Shown here: one piece after another, positions 21,257 to 64,000 of the stretch
Position numbering within the stretch: position 1 is the stretch's first letter
Layout of the letters: each line of letters starts with the position of its first letter
The notes under the pieces: generated by a model
What the model saw: only the letters and a program-made list of their open reading frames with translations
Told to the model about the DNA's origin: nothing
Databases searched by the model: none
Position numbers and translations under genes: made by a program
Origin: Pseudofrankia sp. DC12
GTDB lineage: Bacteria; Actinomycetota; Actinomycetes; Frankiales; Frankiaceae
Length of the DNA stretch: 64,000 nucleotides
Assembly: GCF_000966285.1 (NCBI RefSeq)
Contig: NZ_KQ031391.1
Location: 1,332,919-1,396,918, forward strand
Direction of reading: 5' to 3'

Positions 21257-22111
21257 ATGTCGCCGGCAGCCGACAGGGTCCGTTCGTCGCTGAAGGTCCT
21301 GAGGATCTGGGCGGCGCAGGCACGCAGTCACACGGTCACGGCCGTGAAGCAGCTCTGGTGGGAGCTGCTCGGGCTGCCGATTCGGCTGACGGGAACTCGG
21401 CCGAGTGACGTGATGACCGCGGGCCGCCGCGCGGGCTACCGCGCGCTCGGGCTCTCCATGGTGGTCGTCATCGCCATTCACTGGATCTGCGCGCGTATTT
21501 TCCTGACACTCGCCCTCGACGCCCAAGCGCTGCGCGACCTGACCGGCTCATCGAGCACCAGGGGCGCGGCGAGGTTCGTGGGTCACCTGAGCTACTGGGA
21601 GGCGGCCACCGTCTGGGCCATTTTCATCTACGCGCTTGAGCTTTCCATCACCAGCCAGGTCGGGACGTCTTCGGTGCGCCCGGCGACGACCAAGTCCGGC
21701 CGGCGCCACGGCGTTCATCGGCTGTACGGGCTCTGGGGCCGGGTCGGTGTCGCTATCGTGTTCGGTGTTCTCGTCTCCGAGATGCTCGTTCAGCTGCTTT
21801 TCGCGCCGAGCCTGACCCGAGTGGTGGCCGCCAACCATTCCAAGGAGAACACGGCCGCAGTCAATACGGAGACGAACACGGCGACCGGCGCGCAGGCGAA
21901 CGGGCTGGTCGATGCGAAGGGGCAGCCCACCGGTGTCTACGCCCAGCTGCTCAACCAGCAACGCCAGCTGCAGAACAATAAGAACGCCGCGCGCGAGCGG
22001 CTCGCCTGCGAGCAGAATGGTAACGTCAGCCACCTGACGAATGATCCCGAAACCACAGTCGACTGCGCCTCCTTCCCAGGAACGGGCCGGCCGGGTTACG
22101 AGGTCGCGGCG
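21257..22111 (+). pseudogene. DUF4407-like membrane protein, 5' part (split by IS)
   Basis: These are the first 285 codons of a gene interrupted by the IS4-family element at 22112. Hydrophobic helices are at 'YRALGLSMVVVIAIHWICARIF', 'ATVWAIFIYALELSIT' and 'VGVAIVFGVLVSEMLVQLLF', then a long soluble Asn/Thr/Gln-rich segment ending in the IS. Removing the IS and one copy of the 10-bp duplication joins this frame exactly to codons starting at 24207, giving one protein of about 647 residues. The layout (paired N-terminal helices, long soluble coil, a further membrane helix near 'LVLLLAGVLIDLVPLIIK') fits DUF4407. The gene is disrupted unless the IS excises precisely. Confidence 0.7.
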
Positions 22112-24196
22112 CAATGCCAGTGAAACTCTCTTGATCGCGTGGGTCAGGCTGCCATGGCTGGCTGAGTGTGGTCACGTTCGGTGACATCGGGAAGCGTGAG
22201 TGTTGGGGCCGCCGTGGTGAGGGTGTCGGTGATCGGTCCGCAGATCCGGGTCTCGTAGACGACCTTGCGGGTGGTGAGGCCGGGTCCGGCGTGGGGGAAC
22301 TCCGAGACGCTCTTCGCCCGGCGTTCGCGGGTGCGGTTGCGGTCGGGGGTGTTGCGCCGCCGGCTGAGTGCGCTGTGGATGGCGGCGAGCCGGTGCGCGA
22401 CGACCTCGTCGGGCAGGCCGGGGGTCGCCGCGCCGAGGTGGCGGGTGAGCGCGAGCACCGTGGCCTTGGTGGACAGTTCCCGGGCCAGGACCGGCTGCCC
22501 GGCGCGGGCGCCGCGCTGGGCGGGGGTGGCCTGCGCGGCGGCGCTGCGCTGCACCGCGCGCAGGAGAGCCGCCCCGAGCAGGAGAGCGGGGATCTCCTGG
22601 TCGACCTCGAACGGGTCGGTGGCGCGCAGCATCGGCCCGGCTCCGGGTCCGGAGTCGTTCAGGGTGGCCTTGGTCTCGCGGATCGGGGTCTCGGTCGCGC
22701 CCCATCGGGCCCGGTAGCCGGCGGTGAGAGCGAGCGCGGGCAGCGCGGCGGGGTCGGTGATGTTCGTGGCCACGGCGAACGTCTCACCGGTGTGGACGCC
22801 GTCGGCGAACACGTCCCACTCGACGTCGCGCCAGCCGTGCAGCACGTCGTCGGTGCCGAGGTCGACGAGCGCCGAGCCGTCGGGCAGCCACGTGTCGACG
22901 TCGACGGTGATCCCGGCGCGCAGCCGCACCGCGAGGTTCATCCCGGCGCCGGTCAGCCGCCTCAGCCGCTCGGCGCCGGGGAAGTTACGGTCCCCGACGT
23001 GCAGGAGCCCAGGGTGACAGATCGCCGGGGTGGCGGTCGCGACCTGCTCGAGCAGCGTCTGCTCACCGGCGTCCTTCGCGCCCGAGGACGGGCCGTGGGC
23101 GTAGCCGAGCGGGGTCTTCGTCCCAGCGTCGACGTCGATCAGAAGGCGGACGTGCGGGAACGGCGCCGGGTCGGTGCCCGCCCCGAAGCGCTCCCGGTTC
23201 GCCGCCGTGTCGGGCAGCCGCAGGAGGGTCCCGTCGAAGCCGGCGACCCGGAACGCTCCCGCGGCCAGCGCCTGTGGGTCGTGCGGGTCGAGGAGCTCCG
23301 CGCGCAGCACCACCAGGACCGCCTCGCACACCGCGGCGACCACCACCCCCGGCACGCCGCGCCGCGCCCGGGAGAACGCCGGCCCGCCGGGCGTGGCGGA
23401 GCAGCGGGTGAACGGGACGTCCGCGACCGGCGCGAACAACGCCGCCAGCACGTCGTCCCACCCGGTGCCCGCCATCCACGACCCCAGGACCAGCGCCCGC
23501 ACGACGACCCCCCGGGTCAACGCCAACGCCGTCTCCTGCCCGCGCACGGCGTCATCAGGTGCGGCGTCGTCGCTGCCGGGCGGTGTCGTCGCCTGGAACT
23601 GGGTGAACGCCTCGGCGATCAGCCGGTCGAGCGCGCCGGGGCCGAGCCGCCGGTCGAGCTCGGCCTCCGCCGCTCCCAGCGACACGTGGTCCGCCGCCCG
23701 GCCCGACAGGGCCAGATCCCCGTTGTCGTAGGCCCTGAGCGTCCCGGCCAGCACCGGCCGGTAGACGATCACCTGGTCGCCGTGGCGGGCCGGGAGCGCG
23801 CCCTCAGCCAGCGTGAGCAGGCCGCGGCGGTCGCGGGCCGGCGCCCGGCCGCCGCCGCGGCGCCCGGCCGTGCGAACCGGCCCCGCGGCCAGGTCCTCGG
23901 CACGCACCGCCAGCAGCCCGGCACCGACCCGGCCGAAGGCCACCCCGGGCAGCGCGACCGACGGGACGACAGGATAGAAACAGGACACGGCGGACTCCGG
24001 GTCAGGGAACTGGCTTCGACACCCTTCACCTCACCCGGAGATCCGCTCAAACCCCGCAATCCGGGCACTCCCAGCACCCAAATCCTCCGCTCCGGCGACC
24101 TCCCACCCCACCCCCGACCGTCACCCAACGTCACCGTTAGCTCAGGCGCGGCCGGGTACCTCACACCTCGCGATCAAGCGCCTTACAACGGCATTG
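22112..24196. mobile_element. IS4-family insertion sequence, copy 1
   Basis: The element is 2,085 bp with imperfect terminal inverted repeats of about 28 bp (outer CAATGCC and inner CTTGATCGCG blocks match at both ends). It is flanked by the perfect 10-bp duplication GGTCGCGGCG (22102-22111 and 24197-24206). It carries one transposase gene on the minus strand. A second copy at 53421-55505 has the same length; I find two differences, 22396 C versus 53705 T and 24137 T versus 55446 C. The near identity and intact duplications indicate recent movement. Confidence 0.95.
22144..23988 (-). CDS. IS4-family transposase (copy 1)
   Basis: This 614-residue transposase starts with GTG. DDE-type motifs are 'VAGFDGTLLRLPDTAANRERFG' (first Asp), 'LLHVGDRNFPGAERL' (second Asp) and 'YRARWGATETPIRETK', which resembles the Y-R-E-K signature of the IS4 group. 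The C terminus 'YETRICGPITDTLTT' is shared by actinobacterial members. It appears full length. The protein is identical to copy 2, so both are probably functional. Long rightward frames over this interval are antisense shadows. Confidence 0.92.
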   Translation of the reverse strand: MSCFYPVVPSVALPGVAFGRVGAGLLAVRAEDLAAGPVRTAGRRGGGRAPARDRRGLLTLAEGALPARHGDQVIVYRPVLAGTLRAYDNGDLALSGRAADHVSLGAAEAELDRRLGPGALDRLIAEAFTQFQATTPPGSDDAAPDDAVRGQETALALTRGVVVRALVLGSWMAGTGWDDVLAALFAPVADVPFTRCSATPGGPAFSRARRGVPGVVVAAVCEAVLVVLRAELLDPHDPQALAAGAFRVAGFDGTLLRLPDTAANRERFGAGTDPAPFPHVRLLIDVDAGTKTPLGYAHGPSSGAKDAGEQTLLEQVATATPAICHPGLLHVGDRNFPGAERLRRLTGAGMNLAVRLRAGITVDVDTWLPDGSALVDLGTDDVLHGWRDVEWDVFADGVHTGETFAVATNITDPAALPALALTAGYRARWGATETPIRETKATLNDSGPGAGPMLRATDPFEVDQEIPALLLGAALLRAVQRSAAAQATPAQRGARAGQPVLARELSTKATVLALTRHLGAATPGLPDEVVAHRLAAIHSALSRRRNTPDRNRTRERRAKSVSEFPHAGPGLTTRKVVYETRICGPITDTLTTAAPTLTLPDVTERDHTQPAMAA

Positions 24197-48659: not shown

Positions 48660-50528
48660 ATGTCGTCTGATCTTTCTGTTTCGGCCGCTGGTGATCGGAC
48701 ATGGCCCAACCCCTCAGAAACGCGGGTCGTCGGCGGACCATCGAAAACCTCGGTGCGTCGCCTCGCGGCCGTTGTCGTGCCAGCGGCAGGTGAGGCGTTC
48801 GGGTCGTGGGTAGATCGGGTCGCCGCCGACTTAGGCACATCGACAGGGAACGCGGCCAGGTGGCTGGGGGTGGAGTGCCGGGTGGGGCCGGGAGGCAGCA
48901 CCATGCAGCCCCGGTTCTACGGGGTGACGTTGACCCCGGCCACGGCTGCCGGACTGGTCGCCTCGACCGGGCTGCCCAGCGTGACGTTCGAGACGATGTG
49001 TCTGTCACGGTTCGCTGGGACGGCGTTGGATTTCACCGGGTTGGACGTGGCGCGTGACGCGTCGCTGAGGCCGCTGGCGCTGCGGGAGTGGGCGCTGTTC
49101 ATCGGTAGCCGCGCCTGCTCCCAGTGCCTGGCCGAGTCGAACGGGATGTGGCTGCTGTGGTGGCGGCTGGGCGTTGCTGCGGCGTGCCCCCGGCACCGGG
49201 TGCTGCTGGCGGACTGCTGTCCCCGCTGCGGGCTGCGGCTGCGTCGGGGGCACGCGAGCCGAGGAGGGGTGGCACGCCGAGGAGCGGTGGACGTGCTGCG
49301 GTGCGGCAATTCCGGCCCACACGTCGCCGAGCGAGCCGGGTGCAGCCAGCGGCTGGACCAGATCGAGGGCCGCCCGGCCACAGTCGACCTGCTCGCCGCG
49401 CAGCAGGCTGTGCTGGACGCGGCGTTCGGCGGGCCCACGACGATCGCGGGTGTCCCCGTCGGGGCCGCGGATTGGTTCCGGGGGCTGCGGTTCGCGGCGG
49501 CGCTGCACCGCGTGTTCGCGCCCGTCGACTACGTCGCCGCCTATCCAGGGATGCCGCCGGTGGCGGCTGACGCGTTCGCGACCGCAGCGCAGACCCGGTC
49601 GAGCAAAGCCGCGTTACGGGCGCGGAACCCGCCGAACGTCGGCCATGCCGCGGCAGATCTGTTGCTGGCGTTTCGGGCGCTGGCCGCCGCCGATCCCGAC
49701 GCGTGCACGCAGCTGCTGATGCCGCTGGCGGCGGCAGAGGCCCAGCTGCTGAACACGTCGACCGACCAGCGGCGGCGTGACCAGATGTGGACCGTGGACT
49801 GCCCCGGGATCCTGCCGCGGCTCTGGAAGGCGATCCGCCGCTCCCGGCACCGGGTCTTCGACGCCACCGTGCGGCCAGTGCTGCGGACGCCGACTGCGGC
49901 GGGACTGGAGTTCCGCCACCTTCCCCATCTGATCGGCGCCGAGGACTACCGGCAGCTGGTCGCCTCCCGCCTTCCGGGATGCAATGAGGTGGTCGGACGG
50001 CGGCTGACGGCCGCGGCGTGCGCGCGCCTGCTCGGCGCCCGTTCCTGGCACGCGGCGACGGAGAGGCTCGGCATGCCTGGCCACGCAAAAGTCGTAGTCC
50101 AGAACGCGGGGCTGGTCCGCCGGCTGCCGGAGCCAGACGCCTTCTGGGCCGCAGCGTCGGCGGTGATGGACCGGCTGGCGGCCCGCGGGCCAGTCGACTA
50201 CGCCGCCCGCCGCACAGCGCTGGCCAGCCTGGCCGAGCTCCCCCCGACCGTGGCGGAGCGGATCGACGCCAGGTCGGGGGTGCGCATCGTCCCACGGCAA
50301 CGCCGGCACGCCGCCGCCTGGATCTGGGCCGAGCTGACCAGCGGTGACATCCGTGACGCCCCCGCCTATCCGGCCTGGCTGCCGGACGGGCAGCCGGTGC
50401 GCGGCGCCGCCCACCGGCTGGACGGCGCCCACCGCCGCGCGTTCGTCGCGGACCTGCCGGCGCCAGCCGCCGCAGAGCTCCGCCGCTACGGCGTCGGCCT
50501 GCTGGCCCGCCATGGGATCAGCGCATGA
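48660..50528 (+). CDS. tniQ: TniQ/TnsD-family target-selection protein
   Basis: The protein has about 622 residues from the ATG at 48660; a GTG at 48753 is also possible and would match the usual family start 'VRRLAAVVVPAAGEAFGSW'. The TniQ domain has 'GEAFGSWVDRVAADLGTS' and the zinc site 'CSQCLAESNGMW', 'CPRHRVLL' and 'CCPRCGLRLRRG'. TniQ proteins bind the target or a targeting partner and recruit TnsC. The stop overlaps the tnsA start (ATGA). Here it is the first gene of the module, about 100 nt after atpB. Confidence 0.88.
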   Translation: MSSDLSVSAAGDRTWPNPSETRVVGGPSKTSVRRLAAVVVPAAGEAFGSWVDRVAADLGTSTGNAARWLGVECRVGPGGSTMQPRFYGVTLTPATAAGLVASTGLPSVTFETMCLSRFAGTALDFTGLDVARDASLRPLALREWALFIGSRACSQCLAESNGMWLLWWRLGVAAACPRHRVLLADCCPRCGLRLRRGHASRGGVARRGAVDVLRCGNSGPHVAERAGCSQRLDQIEGRPATVDLLAAQQAVLDAAFGGPTTIAGVPVGAADWFRGLRFAAALHRVFAPVDYVAAYPGMPPVAADAFATAAQTRSSKAALRARNPPNVGHAAADLLLAFRALAAADPDACTQLLMPLAAAEAQLLNTSTDQRRRDQMWTVDCPGILPRLWKAIRRSRHRVFDATVRPVLRTPTAAGLEFRHLPHLIGAEDYRQLVASRLPGCNEVVGRRLTAAACARLLGARSWHAATERLGMPGHAKVVVQNAGLVRRLPEPDAFWAAASAVMDRLAARGPVDYAARRTALASLAELPPTVAERIDARSGVRIVPRQRRHAAAWIWAELTSGDIRDAPAYPAWLPDGQPVRGAAHRLDGAHRRAFVADLPAPAAAELRRYGVGLLARHGISA

Positions 50529-51265
50529 CCCGACACCCCAGCGGCGACAGCAGGGTGAAAGTCCGCTACCTCGACGCCGGGGGCGTCGACCGGCTCGTGA
50601 CGGCAGAACAGGTCGGCGAGGTCGCGTTCGAGACCTGCCCGCCGGTCCGCACGATCCCCGCCTATCACGGGCAGAAACACACCCCGGGCCGCTACTGGTC
50701 GGCCACCGCGAGCGGGCTGCTGGCCTACGAAAGCTTTCTGGAATGCCAGTGGCTGACGCTGCTGGACTTCGACGTGACGGTGACCGCGATCGCCACCCAG
50801 GCCCTGGAGCTGCACGGCAACGACACCGACGGGAAATGGCGGCACGTCCCGGACATCTTCACCCGCCGCAGCGACGGATCGGTACTCGTCGTGGACGTGA
50901 AGAACCCTCACCGACGGCACGATCCCGCGGTGGTCCGGCAAGCCGAGCGGACCGCGGTGGCCTGCGGCCGGCTGGGCTGGGCCTATGAGATGGTGACCGT
51001 CCCACCCAGGCAGCGATACGCCACCATTGCCTGGCTGGCCGGCTACCGCCGGCCGCTACGGGCCACCGCCAGCCTGGTGACGCCCGTCCTGAGCTCGGCG
51101 GCGGATCCGGTGCGGCTGGCGGACCTGCTCGCCGCGACCGGCGCGCCAGAGCTGGCCCGGCCGGTGGTCTTCCACCTCCTCTGGCACCACCGGCTGCTCT
51201 GCGACCTGGATACGCCGCTGCGCGAGCACACCCTGGTCCACGCGGCACCCCCACAGCCGTCATGA
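50525..51265 (+). CDS. tnsA: TnsA-like heteromeric transposase endonuclease subunit
   Basis: This 246-residue protein has the restriction-like fold: 'LLAYESFLECQWLTLLDFD' (catalytic Glu), 'RHVPDIFTRRSDGSVLVVDVKNP' in which 'PDIF' gives the Asp and 'DVK' the Lys, then a C-terminal helical/winged domain ('RPVVFHLLWHHRLLCDLDTPL'). TnsA cuts the 5' strand at transposon ends, enabling cut-and-paste transposition together with TnsB. Both ends overlap neighbours by 4 nt. It appears intact. Confidence 0.88.
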   Translation: MTRHPSGDSRVKVRYLDAGGVDRLVTAEQVGEVAFETCPPVRTIPAYHGQKHTPGRYWSATASGLLAYESFLECQWLTLLDFDVTVTAIATQALELHGNDTDGKWRHVPDIFTRRSDGSVLVVDVKNPHRRHDPAVVRQAERTAVACGRLGWAYEMVTVPPRQRYATIAWLAGYRRPLRATASLVTPVLSSAADPVRLADLLAATGAPELARPVVFHLLWHHRLLCDLDTPLREHTLVHAAPPQPS

Positions 51266-53342
51266 CCGGGAAGACCAGGCTCGCCCTGGGCGACTGGATC
51301 ACCTTCGACGACCAGCGACACCAGGTCGTCGGGTTCACCGACACCGGCATCCGGCTACGGTCACAGACCGGCCGCACGCAGCTCGTCCTCGTCGGTGCCC
51401 TGCTGGGCGATCCCAGCTTCCAAACCGAGCCGACCCCGACGACCAGCCGGCCGGCCCCGACCGCAGGCGCGGCGGACCGGGAGGCGGTGCTGCTCGGCCT
51501 GCCCGCCGCGGAAAGGGCACGGGTCGAGGAGATGGAAGCCCACCTGCTGGAAGCCGAGACCGGCTACCGATCCGGCGACCCTGCCAGCGGCAAACCTCAC
51601 GTCGGCTACGACCCGGCGCACACGACGTTGAGTGAACGGATCGAGGCCAAGGCCAGCGAGCTGGGACTGACCAGCCGCAGGCTCTGGCAGCTGCGCCGGT
51701 CCTGGCAACGTGACGGGCTGATCGGCCTCGCAGACAAGCGCAAGACCCGCCCCCACGCACCGCTGGCCCGCGTCGATCCACGGATCATCACAGCCATCCG
51801 GGAGCAGGCCGCGGCCGACCGGCTGGACTCCTCAGCAACGGTCGGGAACCGGTTTCACCGCCGGACCCAGAACCGCTCGACGCCCAGCACGGGCCCGGCG
51901 TGGTCGTGCTGCCCGGCAAGGACAGCTTCCGGCGGATCGTGAACCTGCTGGTCGACAGCAGACCCAGCGATCCCGCCGCCCGGCGGATCCGCGCGGCGAA
52001 TCAGCCCGACCGGACCTACGGAGCGGTGGCCGCCACCAGACCAGGCGAAGTCGTGATGATGGACACCACCGGACTCGACGTGATCGCGTACGACCCGGCT
52101 TGCAACGTCACCGTGCCGGTGGAACTCACCGTCGCCTTGGACCTGGCGACCCGGTCCCTGCTGGCCTGGCGGCTCACACCCCGTAGCACCAAAAGCGTCG
52201 ACATCGGCCTGCTGCTCGCGGACGTCATGAGCCCAGAGCCGATGCGCCCGCACTGGCCCGACGCCCTGCGCTTCGCGATGCTGCGAATCCCGCACGAACG
52301 GATCCTGACCGTCGACGAACGTCTCGCCCATGCCGCGGCCCGGCCGGTGATCTACCCGGAGACGTTGCTGTTCGACCACGGCAAACCCTACAAGTCCGAG
52401 GTCGTCACCCGGGCCTGCCGACGGCTGGGTATCAGCATCCAGGACGCCAGGACATTCACCCCCACCGACAAACCTCACGTCGAGCGGGTCTTCGAGACGA
52501 TCAACCGGCAGTTCTGCGAACACGTGGCCGGCTACAAAGGTTCGGACATCGCCCACCGGGGCGCGCACGTCGAGGACAGCGCCCGGTGGAGCATCGACGA
52601 CCTCGCCGAACTGTTCGCCGAATATGTCGTCGCGATCTACCAGCGCCGCCACCACTCCGGTCTGATCCTGCACGGCTTCCCCGACCTGCACGCCTCCCCG
52701 AACGAGGCATACACGATGGCCATAGCCGCCGCCGGATACGTCGACTGCCCGACCGACCCGGACCTCTACTACGAGTTGCTGCCGATCGCGGACGGCAAGG
52801 GCCGCACCATCCAACCGGCCGGCGTCCGCATCGGCTACCTCACCTACAACGCGGACATCCTCTACCGCTACCGCAAGACCCGCTCGCCCTACCCGGACGG
52901 GCTCTGGCCCATCCGCCGCGATCCCCGCAACCTGCTGCACGCCTATTTCCACGACCCGGCCGACGGACGGTGGCACGTGCTGCGCTGGACCCACGCACTG
53001 GATGCCCACCAGCCGTTCACCGACCTCACCGTCCGCGAAGCCCGCCGGCTTGTCGCCCTACGCGGGCGGAACCCCGCCGACCAGGACGAGGTCGCCGTCG
53101 CTCTACTCGAACTGCAGAACCGCGTCGACGCGCCAGAAACCTGGACCCGCACCGCGCGCATCCGACAGACCCGCGACGCCCACCGCGGCCGGGCCGCTCA
53201 CCGCGATGCCCAGCGAGGCAGACCGCCAACCGACGACCAGCAAGACCTCCCGCTGCGGCCCGTTCCCGAAGACGACGACCTGGACCTCGACGAACTGCCG
53301 GCCGCCGAGGTCTGGGACCCCCACCACGCCGGGACGGCCTGA
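51262..53342 (+). pseudogene. tnsB: TnsB-like DDE transposase with internal frameshift
   Basis: The frame from 51262 encodes the N-terminal beta and HTH domains ('ERIEAKASELGLTSRRLWQL') to about 51870. The DDE core is in the frame one base back (open from 51714 to 53342): 'PGEVVMMDTTGLDV' (Asp), 'LLFDHGKPYKSEVV' (Asp) and 'KPHVERVFETINRQF' (Glu), then the acidic C terminus. The joined reading 'GNRFHRRTQ' + 'PLDAQHGPGVVVLPGKDSF' is continuous if one base is missing near 51870. No slippery heptamer is seen there, so this is probably a frameshift mutation or a sequencing error rather than programmed frameshifting. Confidence 0.82.
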
Positions 53343-53420
53343 TGCACTTCGCGCACCCGGGCCTCGCCGAACCCCGCACCAAAGAGGAATGGCGCGCCTA
53401 CCTCGACGCCGCCCCACCCG
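53342..53420 (+). pseudogene. tnsC: TnsC-like ATPase, 5' end (split by IS)
   Basis: The ATG overlaps the tnsB stop (TGATG). The first 26 codons ('MHFAHPGLAEPRTKEEWRAY') run into the second IS4-family copy. With the IS and one 10-bp duplication removed, the frame continues exactly at 55516. Confidence 0.8.
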
Positions 53421-55505
53421 CAATGCCAGTGAAACTCTCTTGATCGCGTGGGTCAGGCTGCCATGGCTGGCTGAGTGTGGTCACGTTCGGTGACATCGGG
53501 AAGCGTGAGTGTTGGGGCCGCCGTGGTGAGGGTGTCGGTGATCGGTCCGCAGATCCGGGTCTCGTAGACGACCTTGCGGGTGGTGAGGCCGGGTCCGGCG
53601 TGGGGGAACTCCGAGACGCTCTTCGCCCGGCGTTCGCGGGTGCGGTTGCGGTCGGGGGTGTTGCGCCGCCGGCTGAGTGCGCTGTGGATGGCGGCGAGCC
53701 GGTGTGCGACGACCTCGTCGGGCAGGCCGGGGGTCGCCGCGCCGAGGTGGCGGGTGAGCGCGAGCACCGTGGCCTTGGTGGACAGTTCCCGGGCCAGGAC
53801 CGGCTGCCCGGCGCGGGCGCCGCGCTGGGCGGGGGTGGCCTGCGCGGCGGCGCTGCGCTGCACCGCGCGCAGGAGAGCCGCCCCGAGCAGGAGAGCGGGG
53901 ATCTCCTGGTCGACCTCGAACGGGTCGGTGGCGCGCAGCATCGGCCCGGCTCCGGGTCCGGAGTCGTTCAGGGTGGCCTTGGTCTCGCGGATCGGGGTCT
54001 CGGTCGCGCCCCATCGGGCCCGGTAGCCGGCGGTGAGAGCGAGCGCGGGCAGCGCGGCGGGGTCGGTGATGTTCGTGGCCACGGCGAACGTCTCACCGGT
54101 GTGGACGCCGTCGGCGAACACGTCCCACTCGACGTCGCGCCAGCCGTGCAGCACGTCGTCGGTGCCGAGGTCGACGAGCGCCGAGCCGTCGGGCAGCCAC
54201 GTGTCGACGTCGACGGTGATCCCGGCGCGCAGCCGCACCGCGAGGTTCATCCCGGCGCCGGTCAGCCGCCTCAGCCGCTCGGCGCCGGGGAAGTTACGGT
54301 CCCCGACGTGCAGGAGCCCAGGGTGACAGATCGCCGGGGTGGCGGTCGCGACCTGCTCGAGCAGCGTCTGCTCACCGGCGTCCTTCGCGCCCGAGGACGG
54401 GCCGTGGGCGTAGCCGAGCGGGGTCTTCGTCCCAGCGTCGACGTCGATCAGAAGGCGGACGTGCGGGAACGGCGCCGGGTCGGTGCCCGCCCCGAAGCGC
54501 TCCCGGTTCGCCGCCGTGTCGGGCAGCCGCAGGAGGGTCCCGTCGAAGCCGGCGACCCGGAACGCTCCCGCGGCCAGCGCCTGTGGGTCGTGCGGGTCGA
54601 GGAGCTCCGCGCGCAGCACCACCAGGACCGCCTCGCACACCGCGGCGACCACCACCCCCGGCACGCCGCGCCGCGCCCGGGAGAACGCCGGCCCGCCGGG
54701 CGTGGCGGAGCAGCGGGTGAACGGGACGTCCGCGACCGGCGCGAACAACGCCGCCAGCACGTCGTCCCACCCGGTGCCCGCCATCCACGACCCCAGGACC
54801 AGCGCCCGCACGACGACCCCCCGGGTCAACGCCAACGCCGTCTCCTGCCCGCGCACGGCGTCATCAGGTGCGGCGTCGTCGCTGCCGGGCGGTGTCGTCG
54901 CCTGGAACTGGGTGAACGCCTCGGCGATCAGCCGGTCGAGCGCGCCGGGGCCGAGCCGCCGGTCGAGCTCGGCCTCCGCCGCTCCCAGCGACACGTGGTC
55001 CGCCGCCCGGCCCGACAGGGCCAGATCCCCGTTGTCGTAGGCCCTGAGCGTCCCGGCCAGCACCGGCCGGTAGACGATCACCTGGTCGCCGTGGCGGGCC
55101 GGGAGCGCGCCCTCAGCCAGCGTGAGCAGGCCGCGGCGGTCGCGGGCCGGCGCCCGGCCGCCGCCGCGGCGCCCGGCCGTGCGAACCGGCCCCGCGGCCA
55201 GGTCCTCGGCACGCACCGCCAGCAGCCCGGCACCGACCCGGCCGAAGGCCACCCCGGGCAGCGCGACCGACGGGACGACAGGATAGAAACAGGACACGGC
55301 GGACTCCGGGTCAGGGAACTGGCTTCGACACCCTTCACCTCACCCGGAGATCCGCTCAAACCCCGCAATCCGGGCACTCCCAGCACCCAAATCCTCCGCT
55401 CCGGCGACCTCCCACCCCACCCCCGACCGTCACCCAACGTCACCGCTAGCTCAGGCGCGGCCGGGTACCTCACACCTCGCGATCAAGCGCCTTACAACGG
55501 CATTG
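53421..55505. mobile_element. IS4-family insertion sequence, copy 2
   Basis: The element is 2,085 bp, the same length and end structure as copy 1, in the same orientation. It is flanked by the perfect 10-bp duplication GCCCCACCCG (53411-53420 and 55506-55515). Only two base differences from copy 1 were found. It disrupts tnsC. Confidence 0.95.
53453..55297 (-). CDS. IS4-family transposase (copy 2)
   Basis: This 614-residue protein is identical to copy 1. The one internal base difference (53705) is silent. It should catalyse cut-and-paste of the 2,085-bp element. Confidence 0.92.
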   Translation of the reverse strand: MSCFYPVVPSVALPGVAFGRVGAGLLAVRAEDLAAGPVRTAGRRGGGRAPARDRRGLLTLAEGALPARHGDQVIVYRPVLAGTLRAYDNGDLALSGRAADHVSLGAAEAELDRRLGPGALDRLIAEAFTQFQATTPPGSDDAAPDDAVRGQETALALTRGVVVRALVLGSWMAGTGWDDVLAALFAPVADVPFTRCSATPGGPAFSRARRGVPGVVVAAVCEAVLVVLRAELLDPHDPQALAAGAFRVAGFDGTLLRLPDTAANRERFGAGTDPAPFPHVRLLIDVDAGTKTPLGYAHGPSSGAKDAGEQTLLEQVATATPAICHPGLLHVGDRNFPGAERLRRLTGAGMNLAVRLRAGITVDVDTWLPDGSALVDLGTDDVLHGWRDVEWDVFADGVHTGETFAVATNITDPAALPALALTAGYRARWGATETPIRETKATLNDSGPGAGPMLRATDPFEVDQEIPALLLGAALLRAVQRSAAAQATPAQRGARAGQPVLARELSTKATVLALTRHLGAATPGLPDEVVAHRLAAIHSALSRRRNTPDRNRTRERRAKSVSEFPHAGPGLTTRKVVYETRICGPITDTLTTAAPTLTLPDVTERDHTQPAMAA

Positions 55506-56195
55506 GCCCCACCCGTCCCGCCGGCGATGCCCACCCACGCCGACTACCAGCGGATGCACCCTGACCAGCGCACCCTGCTCGACGAAGCCCGAGAGGACTA
55601 CCACAGCGCGCTGGTCATCGTGCGCACCGAGCAGATGAAACGCATTCACCACCAGATCTACCGCCGGATGCGGACCAATGCCCGCCAAGCCGCCGGCGCC
55701 CGCCGCGGCATCGTCCTGGACGGCCCAGCGACCGTCGGCAAGTCCACCCTGGTCAAAATGTTCGCCGCCGACCTCGAACACAGCCTGCGCCGCCGGCATC
55801 CGGACCGCTTCGGCCCCGACGGCCTGCCCTACATCGTCGACGGCTACACGGTCGACTACACCCCGGTCGTCTACCTCAACATCCCCTCCCAGGCCACCCC
55901 GAAAGACCTTTCCGTCCTGCTCGCCGACTACCTCGGCCACCCACATTCCAACCACGCCACCAAGAACGAGATCACCAAGGCCGTACTGGACGCGATGCGG
56001 CTCTGCGGAGTCGAACTCGTCATCATCGACGACATCCACTTCCTCGACCTGTCAGCACGCGAAGGAAAGGTCGTCAACGACCACCTGAAATACCTGGCCA
56101 ACCACACCGCCGCCACCTTCGTCTACACAGGTGTCGACCTGAACACCTCCGGGCTGTTCCTCGAAGGCCACGGCAGCAGTCGCGCCACCCAGACC
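55506..56195 (+). pseudogene. tnsC: TnsC-like AAA+ ATPase, main part, 3'-truncated
   Basis: The frame continues from the 5' fragment. Walker A is 'VLDGPATVGKSTLVKMF', Walker B is 'ELVIIDDIHFLDLS' and the sensor region is 'ATFVYTGVDLNTS'; these identify the TnsC/TniB regulator that links TniQ target sites to the transposase. The family normally continues well past 'GSSRATQT', but here the sequence enters the ISAs1 left end at 56196 and stops at 56303 in IS sequence. So the gene is broken twice and cannot make a full protein. Confidence 0.88.
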
Positions 56196-58014
56196 CACGG
56201 CGTACCGCAAAGTCAGTTGTCGCAGGTCAAGGCCAGTTTTCGGCACTGCGCCATGGCGGGAGGATCCTGCCGCCGCCTTGATCTTATGATCTTGGTTTGG
56301 TGACTGTCCGTCGCTGACGGCGCCAGGCGCGGGCGGCTCGCGGCCCCCTGAGCTAATGACTGACAGTGACACCGGTGAGGTCGGGTCTGTCCGGGAGATG
56401 CCGGGTTGTCACGTTCGGCGTGCCGGCGGGGAGAAGGGCAACGGGGCGCGGTTAGGACAGGGGCTTCCTAGGTCCGATGTCCGCCGGAGGCCCCGTTGCC
56501 CGTCCAGTCTCGCATGCCCGTCTCGCGGAGCTCCCGGTCGACGGCGGCCCCTCGACGTCCCGCCCGTAGGGCGGCGACCGCGGCGAGGAAGGCTGTGGTG
56601 ACGGCGGCTCGGTCCGAGGTGGCGAGGGCGCTGGCCGCGGCCGAACGCGAGGAGACCCTGGCTCGCGCGCAGGTGACAGTGAATGCGCTGGTCGCGCGGG
56701 CGGTGGCGGTGCGGGCACTGGCGGGCGGGTCGCTGCTCGAGGCGTTCGCGTCGGTGGTCGACCCGCGTCACCCGCGCGGGGTGCGCCACGCGCTCCCGGT
56801 GATCCTGACGTTGTGCGTGGGGGCGGTGCTGCGTGGGGAGACCGAGGTCCTCGACGTGGCGGTCGCGGTCGAGCACGCCGACCAGGTGCTGCTCGCCGCG
56901 TGCGGCGCCCGGACCTCGCCGACGACCGGCCTGTTCGAGGCCCCGTCGCAGGACACGGTGCTGCGCGTGCTCGCGAAGCTGAGCGCGGCATCCCTGGACG
57001 AGACCGTCGGGGCCCACCTGTCCGGCCGCGTGCGCCGCGTCCACGGCGAACGCCCCGACCCCGACGACCCTGCCGGCCCGGACGGGAACGGGCAACCGGC
57101 GCACGCGGGCCGGGCGGGGCGGCGGCGTGAGCAGCGCGCCGCGCGGCGTGCGTTCGCCGCGGACGGCAAGGCGCTGCGCGGCGCCGCGCGCGACGGGACG
57201 CGCACGTACCTGCTCTCGGTGGCGACCCACGACGAGGGCGTCGTCGTCGCCCAGCACGAGATCGGCGAGAAGACCAACGAGGTCCCCGCCCTGGTCCCGC
57301 TACTGAAGGCCCTGGACGCCTACCAGCCCCTGGCCGGCGCCGTGATCACTGTCGATGCCGGCCACACCGTACGCGCGCACGGCAGGGCGATCCGCGCGCT
57401 CGGCGCGCACTTCGTGTTCACCGTCAAACTCAACACCCCGGCACTCAATGCCGACTGCGAGGCCGCCGCGGACTGGAACAACCTGCCCGTCGAGCACGCG
57501 GCCGAGACCCACGGCCACGGACGCGAGGAACTGCGCACGATCCGCCGCGCTCCGGCGACCGCCGAGATCCGCGCCCGCCACCCGGGCGCCCGCACCGTCG
57601 CGCTCATCGAGCGCTACGCCACCCACACCGTCCACAAGGGCAAGGGCGCCAGGCGGGTCACGCAGACCGTGACCACCGCGGTGTCGGTGTTCGTCATCAC
57701 CAGCCTGGAACCCGACGAGGTCACCGCCGAGGAACTCGCGGGCTACGTGAAGGGCCACTGGGCCATCGAGAGCAAGGTCCACTATGTCCGTGACGTCACC
57801 TACCGTGAGGACGCCTCTCAGGTGAGGACCGGTGACCTCCCCCGAGTCATGGCCACGCTCCGTAACACAGCGATCAGCCTGATCCGGCTCGCCGGCCACA
57901 AGGCGATCAAGCCCACCATTCGGCGGCTCAAGCACGACACAGCCCTACTCCTGAACGTCCTCGGCCTCAAACACCCCGCCTGACCAGCACAGACAGACTT
58001 TGCGGTACGCCGTG
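56196..58014. mobile_element. ISAs1-family insertion sequence without target duplication
   Basis: The element is 1,819 bp, bounded by identical 19-bp inverted repeats starting CACGGCGTACCGCAAAGTC at 56196 and complementary at 57996-58014. The left flank is tnsC (ends ACCCAGACC) and the right flank (CGACATCCCC) is the inside of a methyltransferase gene. The flanks show no 8-10 bp duplication. Two different broken genes on the two sides point to an adjacent deletion or recombination between two copies. Confidence 0.88.
56496..57983 (+). CDS. ISAs1-family transposase
   Basis: This protein of about 495 residues has a TTG start with GGAGG six bases upstream; an ATG at 56514 is the alternative. 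Family signatures are 'VVDPRHPRGVRHALPVILTL', 'APSQDTVLRVL', 'FAADGKALRGA' (first Asp), 'AVITVDAGHTVRAH' (second Asp) and 'GHWAIESKVHYVRDVTYRED' (Glu), then 'LRNTAISLIRLAG'. It looks full length, so the element may still be mobile. Confidence 0.92.
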   Translation: MPVQSRMPVSRSSRSTAAPRRPARRAATAARKAVVTAARSEVARALAAAEREETLARAQVTVNALVARAVAVRALAGGSLLEAFASVVDPRHPRGVRHALPVILTLCVGAVLRGETEVLDVAVAVEHADQVLLAACGARTSPTTGLFEAPSQDTVLRVLAKLSAASLDETVGAHLSGRVRRVHGERPDPDDPAGPDGNGQPAHAGRAGRRREQRAARRAFAADGKALRGAARDGTRTYLLSVATHDEGVVVAQHEIGEKTNEVPALVPLLKALDAYQPLAGAVITVDAGHTVRAHGRAIRALGAHFVFTVKLNTPALNADCEAAADWNNLPVEHAAETHGHGREELRTIRRAPATAEIRARHPGARTVALIERYATHTVHKGKGARRVTQTVTTAVSVFVITSLEPDEVTAEELAGYVKGHWAIESKVHYVRDVTYREDASQVRTGDLPRVMATLRNTAISLIRLAGHKAIKPTIRRLKHDTALLLNVLGLKHPA

Positions 58015-58015
58015 C

Positions 58016-60304
58016 GACATCCCCGACGACACAATCTTCAAGGATGTCACCACCCTCGACCGGCTCAAGGACTACGAGGCAGCCCTTCCCAGCCTCATGG
58101 GCATGGGCCTCGGTGACCCCGAGGAGCGCTTCCCCTGGCTACATGTCGTCGAGGACATCGCCAACCGGGAAGGGTTCCTTCACTGGGAATTGGAGTTCGC
58201 TCACGTCTTCAACGACGCAGGCGGATTCGAAATTCAAGTTGGCAATCCACCGTGGTTTCCACCGCGGTGGAAAGAAGATGCTGTCCTTGCAGAGTTCCAA
58301 CCCTGGTTCGAAACCGAGGAAGAGCCATCCGAAAGCGATAGGGTGCTCCGCCGCACAGAACTGCTAAGCCAGCCGCTAGTGCGTAGATATTTTCTCGATC
58401 AGCTGACAAAAAATGGCGCGGTAGTCGCATTTCTTGGGTCATCTCAGATCTATCCACTCGTGACGGGCACGAAGCCCGACCTGTACCGGGCTTTTATGTG
58501 CCAGGTTTGGACGCATACCACGACATCGGGTGTCATTGGAATGCTCCATCCAAGCACCCATTTGACGGGAAACAGTGAAGCGAGACTGCGCGAGTCTTCT
58601 TACCAACGACTGCGCGTCCACGCAGACTTCGTCAACGCAGGGCAACGCTTTTTCCCGGAACCTGTAGGCCATTCGCGCCATTTTAGCGTCAACGTCTACG
58701 GTGCACCGCAAGAGGTGAGCTTCGATCACTTCTCATGGCTGGTCTCGGTTGAGGCCTTGCGCCTGTCGAATGGGCACGATGGTTCCGGCGAACTCCCTGG
58801 GGTGCGCTACCAGAATGCAGAGTTCGACGAGCGTCCGCATCGGTCGCGAATCGTGCACGTCACGCCCGCTACCCTTCAGGTATGGCAACGGCTTCGGAAC
58901 GACATCGATCGACCATACGGCGAGGCTCGCCTGCTATTTCCAGTAAGCACCGGCGAGGCGGATGCTATCGCTGCGTTGGCTGACTTCCCGGTTCGACTGG
59001 GTGACTTCTCGCCTCCAATTTCCGATGGATTCAATGAGGGTGACGCGAAGAAAGTACTATTGATTGACTACAAACGAGAGATCGCGGACTCGCCCCCCGA
59101 TGGCAGCCCGAAACAAGTCGGATGGGATGACGTTATCCTCAAGGGGATCCAGTTGGGTCCTGCCACGCCTATCTTCAAGCGCCACGACGCGAACACTAAT
59201 GATGCCTACGGTCTAGATCTTGTCGAAATCCCTGACAATTTTGTGCCTGACACCCAGTATGAAGTAATTGATGGCAATCGGGCGAAATTCGATACTGCCG
59301 TCAACCAAGACTGTTGGGTTGACTACAGACTGCTATCGACAATGCGGGATGATGGCGTTACGGTAAGCAACCTTCGAGACGAGATCGCGTTGGACTCTGG
59401 CGTCTCGGAAATCGAAGCCTCTCAGGTCATTGAAGCGAGACTGACAGAAGCTGCGATCCGCCCGTACACATCGTTCTACAGGCTAGCCTGGCGTAACCAA
59501 GTCGCCTCTGATACCGAGCGCGCACTCTACGCGGCTCTCATTCCACCCGGTCCGACGCACGTCGATGGTATCCGCACGACGGCGCTGTCGACACTGCGAC
59601 AGACTGCGCTCCTTGCGGGTTTCTGGACCTCCATTCCGCTGGATTACTTCCTTCGAGCAACCGGGCGTCGCCACCTGCACGTCAATGACGCTATAGTTAT
59701 GCCGGCCCCTGATCGGATTCATCCACTGGCCTCGGGTTTGCTACTCCGAACTCTTCGATTGAACTGTCTAACGACAGCCTACGTCGACATTTGGACGGAG
59801 CTATATGACGAGGCTTGGTCCGGGGAATGCTGGGCATTTGAATGGCTTGGGATGCCCGCCCTGCAAGAAGTCGCTCCGACCTGGACCCGTAATACCCCCT
59901 TGCGGACTGAACGTGCTCGCCGATCGGCGCTCGTTGAGATCGACGCACTAGTTTCCGTCTGGCTCGGAATGGACGCAGACGCGCTTATCGGCGCCTACCG
60001 CGGCAGATTTCCCGTGCTGCAGAAATTTGAGGCAGCTACCTGGTTCGATGCGCATGGATGGAAGATATCAAGTGACTCGCGGACCAAGGGGCAACGGCAG
60101 TCAGAAGATAGTTGGATGAAATTCGAGAACTATCTCGAGAGCCAGAGCCACCAGGACGCTCCAACGGGATACACAGCCCCCTTCTACAAAGCAGACCGTG
60201 AGACGGAGATGCGCGCGGCGCACGCGGTGTTCCAGAAGCGGTTGGATGACGCGGTCGTGCGGGGTGAGTGGGACCCGGAGAAGCGTGAGGTGCCGGCGCG
60301 GTGA
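58016..60304 (+). pseudogene. N6-adenine DNA methyltransferase, C-terminal part (5' deleted)
   Basis: The frame emerges from the ISAs1 right end ('DIPDDTIFKDVTTLDRLKDY') and continues about 760 residues. 'FEIQVGNPPWF' is motif IV (NPPW) of amino-methyltransferases of the Eco57I/DrmMI type, followed by 'VAFLGSSQIYPLVTG', 'MLHPSTHLTG' and a long target-recognition region. The SAM-binding motif I (FxGxG), which should lie upstream, is missing, so the product is probably inactive. An internal ATG at 58097 could start a truncated protein. Base composition is clearly more A/T-rich than its neighbours. The stop overlaps the helicase GTG. Confidence 0.82.
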
Positions 60305-63300
60305 GGCCGACGCTGGAGGCTCGGGGGCTGAAGGAGAGCCTGCTGCAGTACCTGACGACCACGTACGCGCTGGCGGACGAGGGAGTGCGGGAGGCGCTGC
60401 ATCGGTTCCTGGGCGATGAGGCCTCGGGGATGTTCCGGGGCCCGTTCCTGCGGATCCGGACGCCGTTCGCGCAGGCCAGTCCAGGTTGGGAGCAGCACCT
60501 GGAGTGGCGGCCGGACGGCTTCAGGCCGTACGCGCACCAGGCGGCGGCGTTCGCGCGGCTGACGTCGGCGCACGGACACGTGCCGGAGCCGACACTGGTG
60601 ACGACGGGTACCGGGTCGGGGAAGACGGAGTCGTTCCTGTACCCGGTGCTGGATCACTGTCGCCGCGAGCGTGCCGCCGGCAAGGCCGGGGTGAAGGCCG
60701 TGTTCCTGTATCCAATGAACGCGTTGGCAACCGACCAGGCGAACCGGATCAACGGGCTTCTCAAGGTTCATGACGCGGACCTGAGCCGGGTGTGGGCCGG
60801 CCTGTATATCGGTGACAAGGCCGCGGTGACCTACGACCGGGTGCTCACGAGCAGGTCGGATATGCGGCTGTCGCCGCCGGACATTCTGATCACGAACTAC
60901 AAGATGTTGGACCTGATGCTGCACCGTGGCGAGGACGTGGCGCTGTGGGCGGGCGCGGACATCCGCTACGTGGTGGTGGACGAGTTCCACACCTACGACG
61001 GGGCCCAGGGCACGGACGTGGCGATGTTGCTGCGCCGGCTCGCCTCGGCGGTGGGCGCGGCGGAGCCGGGCCGGCCGCTGGGGGCGATGTGCCCGGTGGC
61101 GACGTCCGCGACGCTGTCGTCAACCGGCGAGGCCGGCCTGCGCGACCTGCTCGACGTGGCAGGCCAGGTGTTCGGCGCCGAGCTCACCGCGGACGCGGTG
61201 ATCGGGGAGAACCGGCAGTCGGTGGACGTGTTCATTCCGGCGGGTGAGCTGGATCACCAGCCGTTGCCGACGCCGGAGGAGCTGCTTGCGTTGCCGGACC
61301 CGGCGACGAGCGACGATGGCCTGGCTCGGCTGGCCGTGGCGGTGACCGGCGAGGTGGACCTGGATCCGTTCGCGCTGGCGGAGCGGCTGCGTCGACATCT
61401 GCTCACTCGGGCGGTGTTGATCGCGCTCGGGGACGAGGTGCGGACAGGTCCGGAGGTTCTGGACCTGATGTGGCGGCACGGCGCGTCGAACTGGTCGGAG
61501 GCGGTGATGCGCCGGCCGGAGAAGGCGGCCGAGGCGCTGGCGCGGTTCGTCGCCCTGCTGTCGTGGGCTCGCGATCCGGCGTCGCGGGGCGAGACGACGG
61601 CGCGGCCGTTTGTGCATGTCGAGGCGCACCAGTGGGCTCGGTCGGTGTCGCGGCTGCTGCGCGGGGTGCTGCCGTGGCCGCGGGCGGAGTTCCGGTGGGA
61701 CGTGGCCGGCTCGACGGCAGCGGTACCGGACGATGGCGGCCGGGTGACGCCGACCGCGACGACGACGGCGGGGCAGGCCGCGAACGTGTTCCTGCCGGCC
61801 GTCTACTGCCGGGCGTGTGGCCGGTCGGGCTGGGCGGTGTTCTCGCCGGAGAGCGACGACACGGTCATCGAGTTCGACACCTTCAAGATCCGTCGGGCGT
61901 CGGCCGGGCCGGACAAGCTGCGGGTCCGGGCCCTGATCGCGGCGACCGAAGAGGAGGCCGCGGCGGGCGCACGGGCCGGCCTGCCCGGTGCGCGCCTCAG
62001 TGGCTCGGCACTCCAGACGGTCGGCGGGGAGGTGCAGGTCCTGGAGACGGTCACGCAGCGGCTGCGCCTACCCGTTCTCGAACGGGACTACGACCCTGAG
62101 ACCCAAACGCCGCGGCCGGCGCCGGACAGCGCGTTCGTGCTGGTGCAGTTGGGGGCTTCGGCGAACACGGCTGCCGAGCAGGACTGGTGCCCGGCGTGTG
62201 GCGAGCGCAACGCGATCCGGTTCTTGGGCACCGGCCCGGCTGCGATCGCCGCCGCGTCGATCACGCAGTTGTTCACGGCAGGGGAGTTGGACCGATCGCT
62301 GCGCGAGGACAAGACGTTGATGTTCAACGACTCGGTCCAGGACGCGGCGCACCGGGCCGGGTTCGTGGCGACCCGGTCGTTCACGTTCTCGCTGCGCGCG
62401 CTGCTGGTCAGCCGGCTGTCGCAGGACGGGCCGACAGCGCTCAACGACCTGATCGCCGATGTGATCACGGCGGTTGATGAGGCGCCGGCCGAGGACAAGA
62501 CGCTGTCGGCCGTGGTCCCGCCGGACCTGCATGGGCTGCGCCCGGTGGAGCGGCTGTTGTCCGGCAAGGGCGGCGACCGGGCGACGTGGGATCTGATCGG
62601 GCAGCGGCTCGCGTTCGACACGCTGATGGAGTTCGGGTTCCGCTCCCGCAACGGCCGCACCCTGGAGCTGACCCGCACCGCCGCGGCGCACGTCCACATC
62701 CCGGATCCGGCCGGCGCGGTCGCGCTGACCCGCGAGATCCACCGCGGGCTCGGTCGAGAGGACATGCCGGTCCGGGAACAGGACGACGCTCGGTACCTGG
62801 CGCTGCTGCGGGTGTTCCTGGAACGTCTGCGTACCCGCGGCGCGGTGGCGCACCAGTGGCTGGGCGGCTACCTCGACGAGGCGGGGACGAACCGCTACCA
62901 GGTCTGGGGCGGCCGGCCGCTTGGTATGCGGGCGTTCCCACGCGGGATCGCCGCGCCGAAGTTCCTGCTGGCGAAGCCCAAGAACCGCAGCGAGTTCGAC
63001 GTCGCCACCGGCCGGCTGTCCTGGTACGAGCGGTGGGCGCAGCGCTGCCTGGAGGTGACCCGCGACCAGGCCGGCGACTTCTGGGGAGAGCTGCTGCCCT
63101 TGCTCGTCCGTGCCGGGCTGCTCGCGGTGCACACGCCGCTGGACACGTCGGGGCGCATCTACGGCCTGTTGCCCGGGATCATCGACGCGGAGCTGCTCAC
63201 AGACGAGGAGGTACAGGTCGCCTTCGTGCGCTGCCCGGTGTGTTTTTGGGAGCAGACGGTGCATCCGGCGCTGCTCGACCAGTGGCGTGGCCAGCCGTGC

Positions 63301-64000
63301 CCGTCCTACCGGTGCCGCAGCGGCCGGCTCGTCGCCGGTGACCAGCCGGACGGGCTCGGCCGGCACCATCGCGACCGTGACTACACCCAGGACTACTACC
63401 GGCGTCTTTACCGGACGGCCGGCCCCTACCATGTGATCACTGCCGAGCACACCGGGATGCTGACCCGCTCGCAGCGGGAGAAGGTTGAGAAGGCGTTCCG
63501 CGACGGCGTCGGGTTCAAGGCGCCGAACGTGCTGTCGTGCACGCCGACGCTGGAGCTCGGCATCGACGTAGGCGATCTGTCGGCGGTGGTGCTGGCCGCA
63601 TTGCCGCGCCGGCCGGCGAACTACGCCCAGCAGGTTGGCCGGGCCGGGCGTCGGACCGGCAACGCGTTCCTGCTGACGATCCTCGACCGGCAGCGGCGTG
63701 ACCTGTACTTCCTGGACCAGCCGAAGGACATGATCGCCGGGACGATCGTTCCGCCGGGCTGCTACCTGTCCGCGGTGGAGATCCTGCGCCGTCAGTACCT
63801 GGCGCACCTGCTGGACCTGGCTGCCGCCGGCAGGCTGCTGCGGCCGGACGAGGTGCCGTTGCGTCCGCTGCCGGCGCGGGCGCCGAAGCTGTTCGGCCCG
63901 TCGGGCTACCTCGTCGATCTGGTGGCCGCCGCGCTCGCCCACGGCGCCGAGCTCGCCGACCGCTTCCTCGGCCTGTTCCCTGCCGGTGTCAGCGAGCAGG
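60301..64000 (+). CDS. very large DEAD/DEAH-like helicase, 3' end outside window
   Basis: The frame starts with the GTG at 60301 overlapping the methyltransferase stop and stays open for more than 1,230 codons. Motif Q/I is 'PYAHQAAAF' and 'TLVTTGTGSGKTESFLYP' (residues about 98-115), motif Ia 'VFLYPMNALATDQ', motif II 'VVVDEFHTYDGAQGTDVAML' (DEFH, about 227), motif III 'TSATLSS' (about 267) and C-terminal motifs 'CTPTLELGIDVGDLSAVV' and 'QQVGRAGRR' (about 1110). Between them are cysteine pairs for zinc ('CRACGRSG', 'CPACGERN', 'CPVCF'). Such helicases (YprA-like, DrmA, DruE) are parts of phage-defence systems. Confidence 0.85.
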   Translation, partial: MRPTLEARGLKESLLQYLTTTYALADEGVREALHRFLGDEASGMFRGPFLRIRTPFAQASPGWEQHLEWRPDGFRPYAHQAAAFARLTSAHGHVPEPTLVTTGTGSGKTESFLYPVLDHCRRERAAGKAGVKAVFLYPMNALATDQANRINGLLKVHDADLSRVWAGLYIGDKAAVTYDRVLTSRSDMRLSPPDILITNYKMLDLMLHRGEDVALWAGADIRYVVVDEFHTYDGAQGTDVAMLLRRLASAVGAAEPGRPLGAMCPVATSATLSSTGEAGLRDLLDVAGQVFGAELTADAVIGENRQSVDVFIPAGELDHQPLPTPEELLALPDPATSDDGLARLAVAVTGEVDLDPFALAERLRRHLLTRAVLIALGDEVRTGPEVLDLMWRHGASNWSEAVMRRPEKAAEALARFVALLSWARDPASRGETTARPFVHVEAHQWARSVSRLLRGVLPWPRAEFRWDVAGSTAAVPDDGGRVTPTATTTAGQAANVFLPAVYCRACGRSGWAVFSPESDDTVIEFDTFKIRRASAGPDKLRVRALIAATEEEAAAGARAGLPGARLSGSALQTVGGEVQVLETVTQRLRLPVLERDYDPETQTPRPAPDSAFVLVQLGASANTAAEQDWCPACGERNAIRFLGTGPAAIAAASITQLFTAGELDRSLREDKTLMFNDSVQDAAHRAGFVATRSFTFSLRALLVSRLSQDGPTALNDLIADVITAVDEAPAEDKTLSAVVPPDLHGLRPVERLLSGKGGDRATWDLIGQRLAFDTLMEFGFRSRNGRTLELTRTAAAHVHIPDPAGAVALTREIHRGLGREDMPVREQDDARYLALLRVFLERLRTRGAVAHQWLGGYLDEAGTNRYQVWGGRPLGMRAFPRGIAAPKFLLAKPKNRSEFDVATGRLSWYERWAQRCLEVTRDQAGDFWGELLPLLVRAGLLAVHTPLDTSGRIYGLLPGIIDAELLTDEEVQVAFVRCPVCFWEQTVHPALLDQWRGQPCPSYRCRSGRLVAGDQPDGLGRHHRDRDYTQDYYRRLYRTAGPYHVITAEHTGMLTRSQREKVEKAFRDGVGFKAPNVLSCTPTLELGIDVGDLSAVVLAALPRRPANYAQQVGRAGRRTGNAFLLTILDRQRRDLYFLDQPKDMIAGTIVPPGCYLSAVEILRRQYLAHLLDLAAAGRLLRPDEVPLRPLPARAPKLFGPSGYLVDLVAAALAHGAELADRFLGLFPAGVSEQ

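Follow-up and report, generated by a model that had tools for sequence, protein, structure and literature searches.

A decayed ARMADA type II operon followed by a Druantia type IV operon with three chaperone-like genes in Pseudofrankia sp. DC12

The window analysed here is a stretch of 64,000 nucleotides (nt) of Pseudofrankia sp. DC12 (contig NZ_KQ031391.1, positions 1,332,919 to 1,396,918), which is part of a single-contig 6.88 Mb genome; reading was continued past the window end, and the window numbering is continued accordingly. The last two genes of the window, encoding an adenine methyltransferase and a giant YprA-type helicase, are the 3' end of a decayed ARMADA type II operon in which ArmA is lost, ArmB is truncated and ArmC and ArmD are complete. 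This remnant is followed in the same orientation by the genes of a Druantia type IV system (DruF, DruL and DruE), which run into three further genes encoding a J-like protein, a GrpE-like protein (X) and a short Hsp70, hereafter the trio.

The methyltransferase frame (58016-60304, plus strand) encodes an Eco57I/PglX-like (type IIG-like) N6-adenine methyltransferase and was identified as the 3' fragment of ArmB by its motifs and by profile PDLC03611 (338 bits), with the best-matching stretch at profile positions 902-1279 of 1532. About 900 N-terminal residues are gone, the frame stays open as far as an adjacent insertion sequence (IS), the NPPW motif is kept and the S-adenosylmethionine (SAM) motif is gone. 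The one place in the genome that does contain the missing N-terminal part is a second, paralogous ARMADA locus, where the SAM motif is present. A first-pass annotation of the window had thus assigned the methyltransferase to the correct family, but the gene is not intact. The reported overlap with a giant YprA-type helicase is real: the helicase frame starts at 60301, with an overlap of 4 nt. This gene, ArmC (2234 amino acids (aa); 60301-67005, plus strand; contig positions 1393219-1399923), crosses the window end and encodes DEAD, Helicase_C and MZB (DUF1998) domains, a motif II of the form DEFH and seven CxxC pairs. Related loci were limited to the best 80 of 520, from named genomes; DEFH is present in 79 of these 80, a biased count because the loci were fetched partly with that very peptide. 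DEFH and the cysteine pairs had been suggested as possible marks of a distinct subgroup; both are present but fit zinc-binding modules that the accessible text of the ARMADA study reports for this helicase clade (Bell et al. 2025, PMC12458937). The closest ArmC among the 80 loci, that of Frankia sp. AgB1.9 (L018, 89%), provided a model of the C-terminus for which four of the five best VIA-align rows were endonucleases or endonuclease-like, including Vsr (1cw0; Z 5.3-6.5), with unrelated ubiquitin-conjugating enzymes next (Z 5); Foldseek returned no match for this model at E<0.001. ArmD (67002-69299, plus strand), identified by gene reading and profile matches, encodes a GajB-like UvrD helicase with an N-terminal RelE-like domain, and the N-terminus of its L018 counterpart folds as RelE (2khe, E 2.5e-5).

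The pair had been proposed to be the core of DISARM class 1, Druantia or Hma. Its best profiles are DruE3, matched partially, and the type IIG methyltransferase, and it belongs to ARMADA type II instead. ArmC scores 288 bits with DruE3 and only 48 bits with DrmA, on which ground DISARM class 1 was rejected, as was the DrmMI label for the methyltransferase (24 bits versus 338 for the type IIG profile). No separate DrmB or DrmC was found among the matches listed for the ten scanned proteins, DUF1998/MZB being contained within the helicase. HmaA, HmaB and HmaC were likewise absent from the matches listed for the scanned proteins, and Hma is unsupported as the identity of the pair; ArmA of the second locus does match HmaA (159 bits), below its match to DrmD (297 bits).

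Among the 35 close relatives with enough upstream DNA (L021, L027, L034, L055 and L076 were left out because their contigs stop short), the order ArmA-ArmB-ArmC-ArmD is kept. All 35 carry ArmA, and 32 of them have an ArmB without interruption, the exceptions being frame-shifted (L029, L054) or split (L040); intact relatives of the pair, which the annotation had suggested looking for, do exist. At the window locus ArmA, a BrxHII/RapA-like SNF2 helicase that is the first gene of the operon, is absent, with the IS and Tn7-like genes in its place. As far as the text available to us goes, the locus shares with published ARMADA type II the order ArmB-ArmC-ArmD, a YprA-type ArmC, possibly with a C-terminal nuclease-like domain, a RelE-UvrD ArmD and a Druantia system as neighbour, and differs in the absence of ArmA, the truncation of ArmB and the partner, which is Druantia IV with the trio here and Druantia III with Zorya II there (PMC12458937). 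A second ARMADA type II clade (L068, L079 and L087, at ~4.6-9.9 kb of the loci) carries genes for a regulator, a DUF262-like protein, an ATPase and a 314-aa protein between ArmB and ArmC, the domains being named by reading rather than by domain search.

All genes of the Druantia operon lie beyond the window on the plus strand. DruF (69636-71714, DruF4 335 bits) and DruL (71711-72679, DruL4 309 bits), with starts chosen by homology, and DruE (72676-78219, 1847 aa, DruE4 2095 bits) are all full length, which agrees with the definition of Druantia type IV in the part of the PADLOC description at hand (PMC8565338); the extension by J-like, GrpE-like and Hsp70 genes lies outside that published definition. 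Each trio gene overlaps the preceding gene by 4 nt, and none has a convincing PADLOC match. The annotation's suggestion of a phage-defence role stands, given the ARMADA type II genes and the defence partners that were indeed found beyond 64000, albeit with no separate DrmB or DrmC among the matches listed. In addition to Druantia IV, these comprise a TIR-NTPase-TPR gene and a Mrr type IV restriction gene on the minus strand directly after Hsp70 (L016 4476-11602). Elsewhere in the genome (~3635-3647 kb; L013 2-12072), Wadjet type II-like JetC, JetB and JetA genes lie on one strand with two further genes, one for a YprA/DruE3-like helicase of 1557 aa and one for a 419-aa product that has no match, possibly as a combined system.

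The Hsp70 gene (80692-82380) was identified by Pfam (HSP70, 178 bits), and its nucleotide-binding (ATPase) motifs were present in all 14 copies checked. Druantia-linked copies end at 560-588 aa and, judged by this length, would be too short for the usual helical lid. The other two genes were identified by hhalign with controls. The 569-aa J-like protein (78216-79925) matches the start of J domains (72%, E 3.5e-5) and a portion of the second half of the 257-aa protein X (79922-80695) matches GrpE (51%, E 1.5e-4), scores that were reached by none of 100 column shuffles and none of 50 decoy profiles. Of the 25 GrpE loci, 22 entered this comparison, as did 23 of the 25 loci with a J domain (L124, L136, L138, L153 and L172 left out). 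The HPD motif of J domains is found in none of 14 J-like proteins.

The distribution of the trio was investigated in two large genome searches in which three to five candidates were scored per genome, and the genome counts are therefore lower bounds. The J-like gene (E 1e-10) was found in at least four of 393 genomes of the class, all of them among the nine with DruL (E 1e-15; a weak match in G025, E 1.4e-4, was not counted), a co-occurrence with a Fisher p of 1.3e-7 including the window genome and ~6e-6, calculated by hand, without it. In the genus of G149, at least ten of 295 genomes contain the J-like gene (E 1e-6). Eight of the 13 genomes from both searches, the window genome included, encode a contiguous DruF-DruL-DruE-J-X-Hsp70 run, and a ninth case was reached in Streptomyces stelliscabiei via its ARMADA locus (L120; its DruE has a break near the C-terminus). 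In the remaining five genomes the trio has no adjacent Druantia, although one of them (G291) encodes Druantia IV on another contig. Overlaps of 4 nt are shared by X and Hsp70 in 13 of 13 loci and by J and X in 10 of 13, some starts having been chosen by script. The nine trio-linked DruE proteins form one clade in the tree, with the six unlinked DruE proteins outside it. No relative of the J-like family was identified in the viral contigs scanned (94 pattern matches), and tblastn searches of plasmids with J and DruL returned nothing.

The Hsp70 proteins of all five trios located away from Druantia are longer (684-705 aa) and contain a C-terminal domain that can be aligned to the Zc3h12a/NYN nuclease. 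PF11977 (cut-off 23) matches three of them (L116, 32.7 bits; L187, 25.4; L190, 24.9), falls below the cut-off in L186 (20.7) and does not match L185; the NYN-type domains of all five nevertheless align with each other (pairwise hhalign among groups 97.8-99.6%). No PF11977 match was found in any of the nine Druantia-linked Hsp70 copies. L185 and L190 encode the unlinked Hsp70s nearest to the linked ones in the tree, and some catalytic-looking acidic positions of their NYN-type domain are, by eye, replaced. In two of the five trios (L186 and L187), X was named solely from where its gene lies. The L187 trio overlaps by 4 nt with a run of genes for a YprA helicase (cut by the end of the stretch), a SNF2 helicase and a methyltransferase, the order described for ARMADA type I. 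As the SNF2 gene matches the PADLOC DpdE profile over its full length (1939 bits), 'ARMADA type I-like' refers here to gene order only. At L197 (4859-11000), genes for a GrpE-like protein, an Hsp70, a 389-aa protein and a CHAT-domain protease (95.6 bits) lie in a row, which is perhaps another chaperone-based conflict system. The NYN-type domain, the YprA/SNF2/methyltransferase run at L187 and the CHAT protease at L197 together suggest a chaperone module with exchangeable executioners.

ARMADA type II genes were found within ~20 kb of the extended Druantia operon in four of the nine linked loci, a raw count from flanks of differing length. S. stelliscabiei encodes a complete ARMADA II next door to Druantia IV and the trio (L052), in G618 ARMADA II follows them in the same direction, in G149 ArmA and ArmB occupy the opposite strand and the available stretch stops short of ArmC, and the fourth case is the remnant in the window genome. 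A repeated neighbourhood of this kind, with Druantia IV in place of the Druantia III of E. coli, would support the two families working together. ARMADA II and Druantia III are reported to act synergistically in E. coli against a subset of phages (Bell et al. 2025, PMC12458937, text seen in part).

Taken together, we interpret the site as a composite anti-phage island in which a decayed ARMADA II is followed by an intact Druantia IV whose DruE is gated by a dedicated chaperone trio, an interpretation to which we give an even chance of being correct. In this model, Hsp70 would cycle on a client that infection alters in amount or state, which might be DruF or DruL, a host protein that has become occupied or a protein of the phage, and the client-loaded cycle would release or assemble, and thereby license, DruE for action on phage DNA. 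DruE would then be a DNA-directed helicase effector that replaced the NYN nuclease of an ancestral trio. DruE of Druantia III has been described, in the portion of the report consulted, as a helicase-nuclease effector engaging replication intermediates that contain single-stranded DNA (PMC13192584). As the J-like protein lacks HPD, its role may be to select the client and not to stimulate hydrolysis of ATP.

More broadly, the trio could be a portable infection sensor for different executioners, i.e., the Hsp70-fused nuclease, the ARMADA type I-like operon and Druantia IV, with the Druantia line having swapped its nuclease for control of a YprA-type helicase and thereby representing a class of chaperone-gated anti-phage systems. 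We propose this only tentatively and lean somewhat against it. To our knowledge, how infection is recognized by YprA-helicase defences such as Druantia IV and ARMADA is largely open. A chaperone cycle encoded within the operon, together with the path from a fused to a degenerate to no nuclease, points to a concrete, testable sensing device, and the pairing of Druantia IV with the trio may show how bacteria switch on virus defence via chaperones.

Several observations weigh against gating of DruE by the trio in a composite island. The Pfam GrpE and DnaJ models do not match X and J, which is why we use the names 'GrpE-like' and 'J-like', and the likeness consists in the profile-profile matches (51% and 72%) alone; a sequence search of the PDB yielded no GrpE or J chain; J had no match at all, and X matched only a designed repeat protein. 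A degenerate J protein without HPD may furthermore be non-functional with Hsp70. Six of the nine Druantia IV (DruL) genomes of the class sample have no adjacent trio, which is thus not needed for every Druantia IV. On the ARMADA side, Druantia IV is adjacent in only one of the 80 ARMADA loci, within the fetched flanks, and in five of the nine linked loci the searched stretches contain nothing of ARMADA II except a single ArmD-like gene (G565; 35%, ~14 kb away), which was not counted as ARMADA II.

The trio could alternatively be a private folding helper that keeps the large DruE (1847 aa) soluble, with no part in sensing or switching. Its genes share an operon with DruE and overlap, and the ATPase motifs of Hsp70 are kept. 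However, Druantia IV helicases of similar size do without the trio in six loci, the 80 ARMADA loci with their large ArmC show no trio in the fetched flanks, and where the trio stands apart from Druantia its Hsp70 bears an NYN-type nuclease domain, which folding would not need. We therefore consider a pure folding role rather unlikely. We also find it improbable that the trio works as a defence or toxin-like system in its own right that was merely captured beside Druantia IV, with both acting separately. The nuclease-domain trios away from Druantia in five genomes would agree with such autonomy, but the nuclease domain is missing in nine of nine linked loci, the gene order there does not vary and all linked DruE proteins group in one clade, so that the effector of the trio has been lost and the trio seems to be inherited with DruE.

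The individual parts, ARMADA II, Druantia IV and the members of the trio, are of known kinds, and their combination was not found in the literature searched, most subscription journals lying outside the search. Chaperones have been linked to conflict systems before. The GAP1-N2 GTPase systems, which are found mainly in Actinobacteria and Firmicutes, likewise bring HSP70 and GrpE together with a J-domain protein in a single predicted conflict neighbourhood but, in the sections available, are centred on a GTPase, have no YprA helicase core and carry the J domain as a fusion with an FNIII-repeat protein (Kaur et al. 2020, PMC7159879). CnuD of the CoCoNuT systems is an Hsp70 homologue inside a restriction system but, according to the portions accessed, is fused or linked to McrBC homologues and has a degenerate Walker A-like motif; the words DnaJ and GrpE are absent from the main text of that study (Bell et al. 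2024, PMC11090510). A precedent for a chaperone cycle as phage sensor is bNACHT25, which needs host DnaJ and its co-chaperone activity rather than a dedicated trio, as stated in the part of the article available (PMC12169576). Druantia and Hsp70 occur together only in the CoCoNuT work within the searched literature, some of it available in part, and there concern other systems; a Druantia-chaperone operon was not found in the titles and abstract beginnings among the matches listed.

The ARMADA half of the island is probably inactive as ARMADA, by analogy with E. coli, where all four ARMADA II genes are needed according to the available text (Bell et al. 2025, PMC12458937). Alternatively, ArmC and ArmD might remain active as a helicase-nuclease pair in the absence of ArmA and ArmB, or might use the ArmA encoded at the second locus. 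Both frames are intact and conserved relative to L018, with ratios of nonsynonymous to synonymous substitution rates (dN/dS) of 0.15 for ArmC and 0.16 for ArmD, but this conservation may predate the loss. Synonymous divergence (pS) from L018 is far higher for the ArmB fragment (0.70) than for ArmC (0.32), and the fragment may therefore have had a different history. The second ARMADA II copy (L012, 1243-1263 kb, ~70 kb upstream of the window start) encodes an intact ArmA and has the ARMADA type II gene order of SNF2 helicase, methyltransferase, YprA helicase and RelE-UvrD, but its ArmB is interrupted by a transposase gene (L012 7587-8585), presumably IS30-like. With the IS-bounded fragment at the window locus, ArmB is thus broken at both loci of the genome. 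In favour of a self-sufficient pair, 14 divergent relatives have no ArmA or ArmB frame in at least 9 kb of upstream DNA (one has a partial ArmA-like match on the opposite strand), although these genes may lie further off. Given the requirement for all four genes in E. coli, we regard continued function of the pair as doubtful.

Upstream of the pair lies a degraded Tn7-like module on the plus strand. It consists of a TniQ-like gene (48903-50528; PF06527, 36.9 bits), a TnsA-like gene assigned by position only, with no Pfam match (50525-51265), a TnsB-like transposase gene (51262-53342; rve 27.1 and Mu C-terminal 18.4 bits, both below the Pfam cut-off) and a TnsC/TniB-like ATPase gene (55527-56195; PF05621, 54.3 bits) that is cut at an IS edge. 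The TnsB-like gene is split over two frames (51262-51942 and 51900-53342) and is probably a pseudogene. An IS transposase gene (53453-55297, minus strand; DDE_Tnp_1, 20.2 bits, below cut-off) lies between TnsB and TnsC, in an insertion element (53381-55470) of which a 99.9% identical copy is present at 22110-24161. The second IS (56196-58014, plus strand) encodes a transposase with DDE_Tnp_1 and DDE_Tnp_1_assoc domains (56595-57983), is bounded by 34-nt terminal inverted repeats (56196-56229 and 57981-58014) and forms the junction of the truncated TnsC and the truncated ArmB. The supposed Tn7-like element with a methyltransferase-helicase pair is hence a junction of two broken modules, as the IS edges cut both ArmB and TnsC and TnsB is split. 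Mobilization of the defence genes as cargo of a Tn7-like transposon, as first proposed from the TniQ-TnsABC-like genes directly upstream in the same orientation, is very improbable, since TnsB is frame-shifted, TnsC is truncated at the IS and a scan of 92 other loci, comprising 80 ARMADA relatives, eight trio loci and four other stretches of the same genome, yielded no Tns homologue at E 1e-5 (element ends were not part of the search). Just upstream of the window (L014 13029-18564), a 7-deazaguanine cluster, a possible hint at a Dpd system, contains, within 6 kb, genes for QueC, a PTPS-family (QueD-like) protein, a radical SAM (QueE-like) protein, a reverse transcriptase and a further radical SAM protein.

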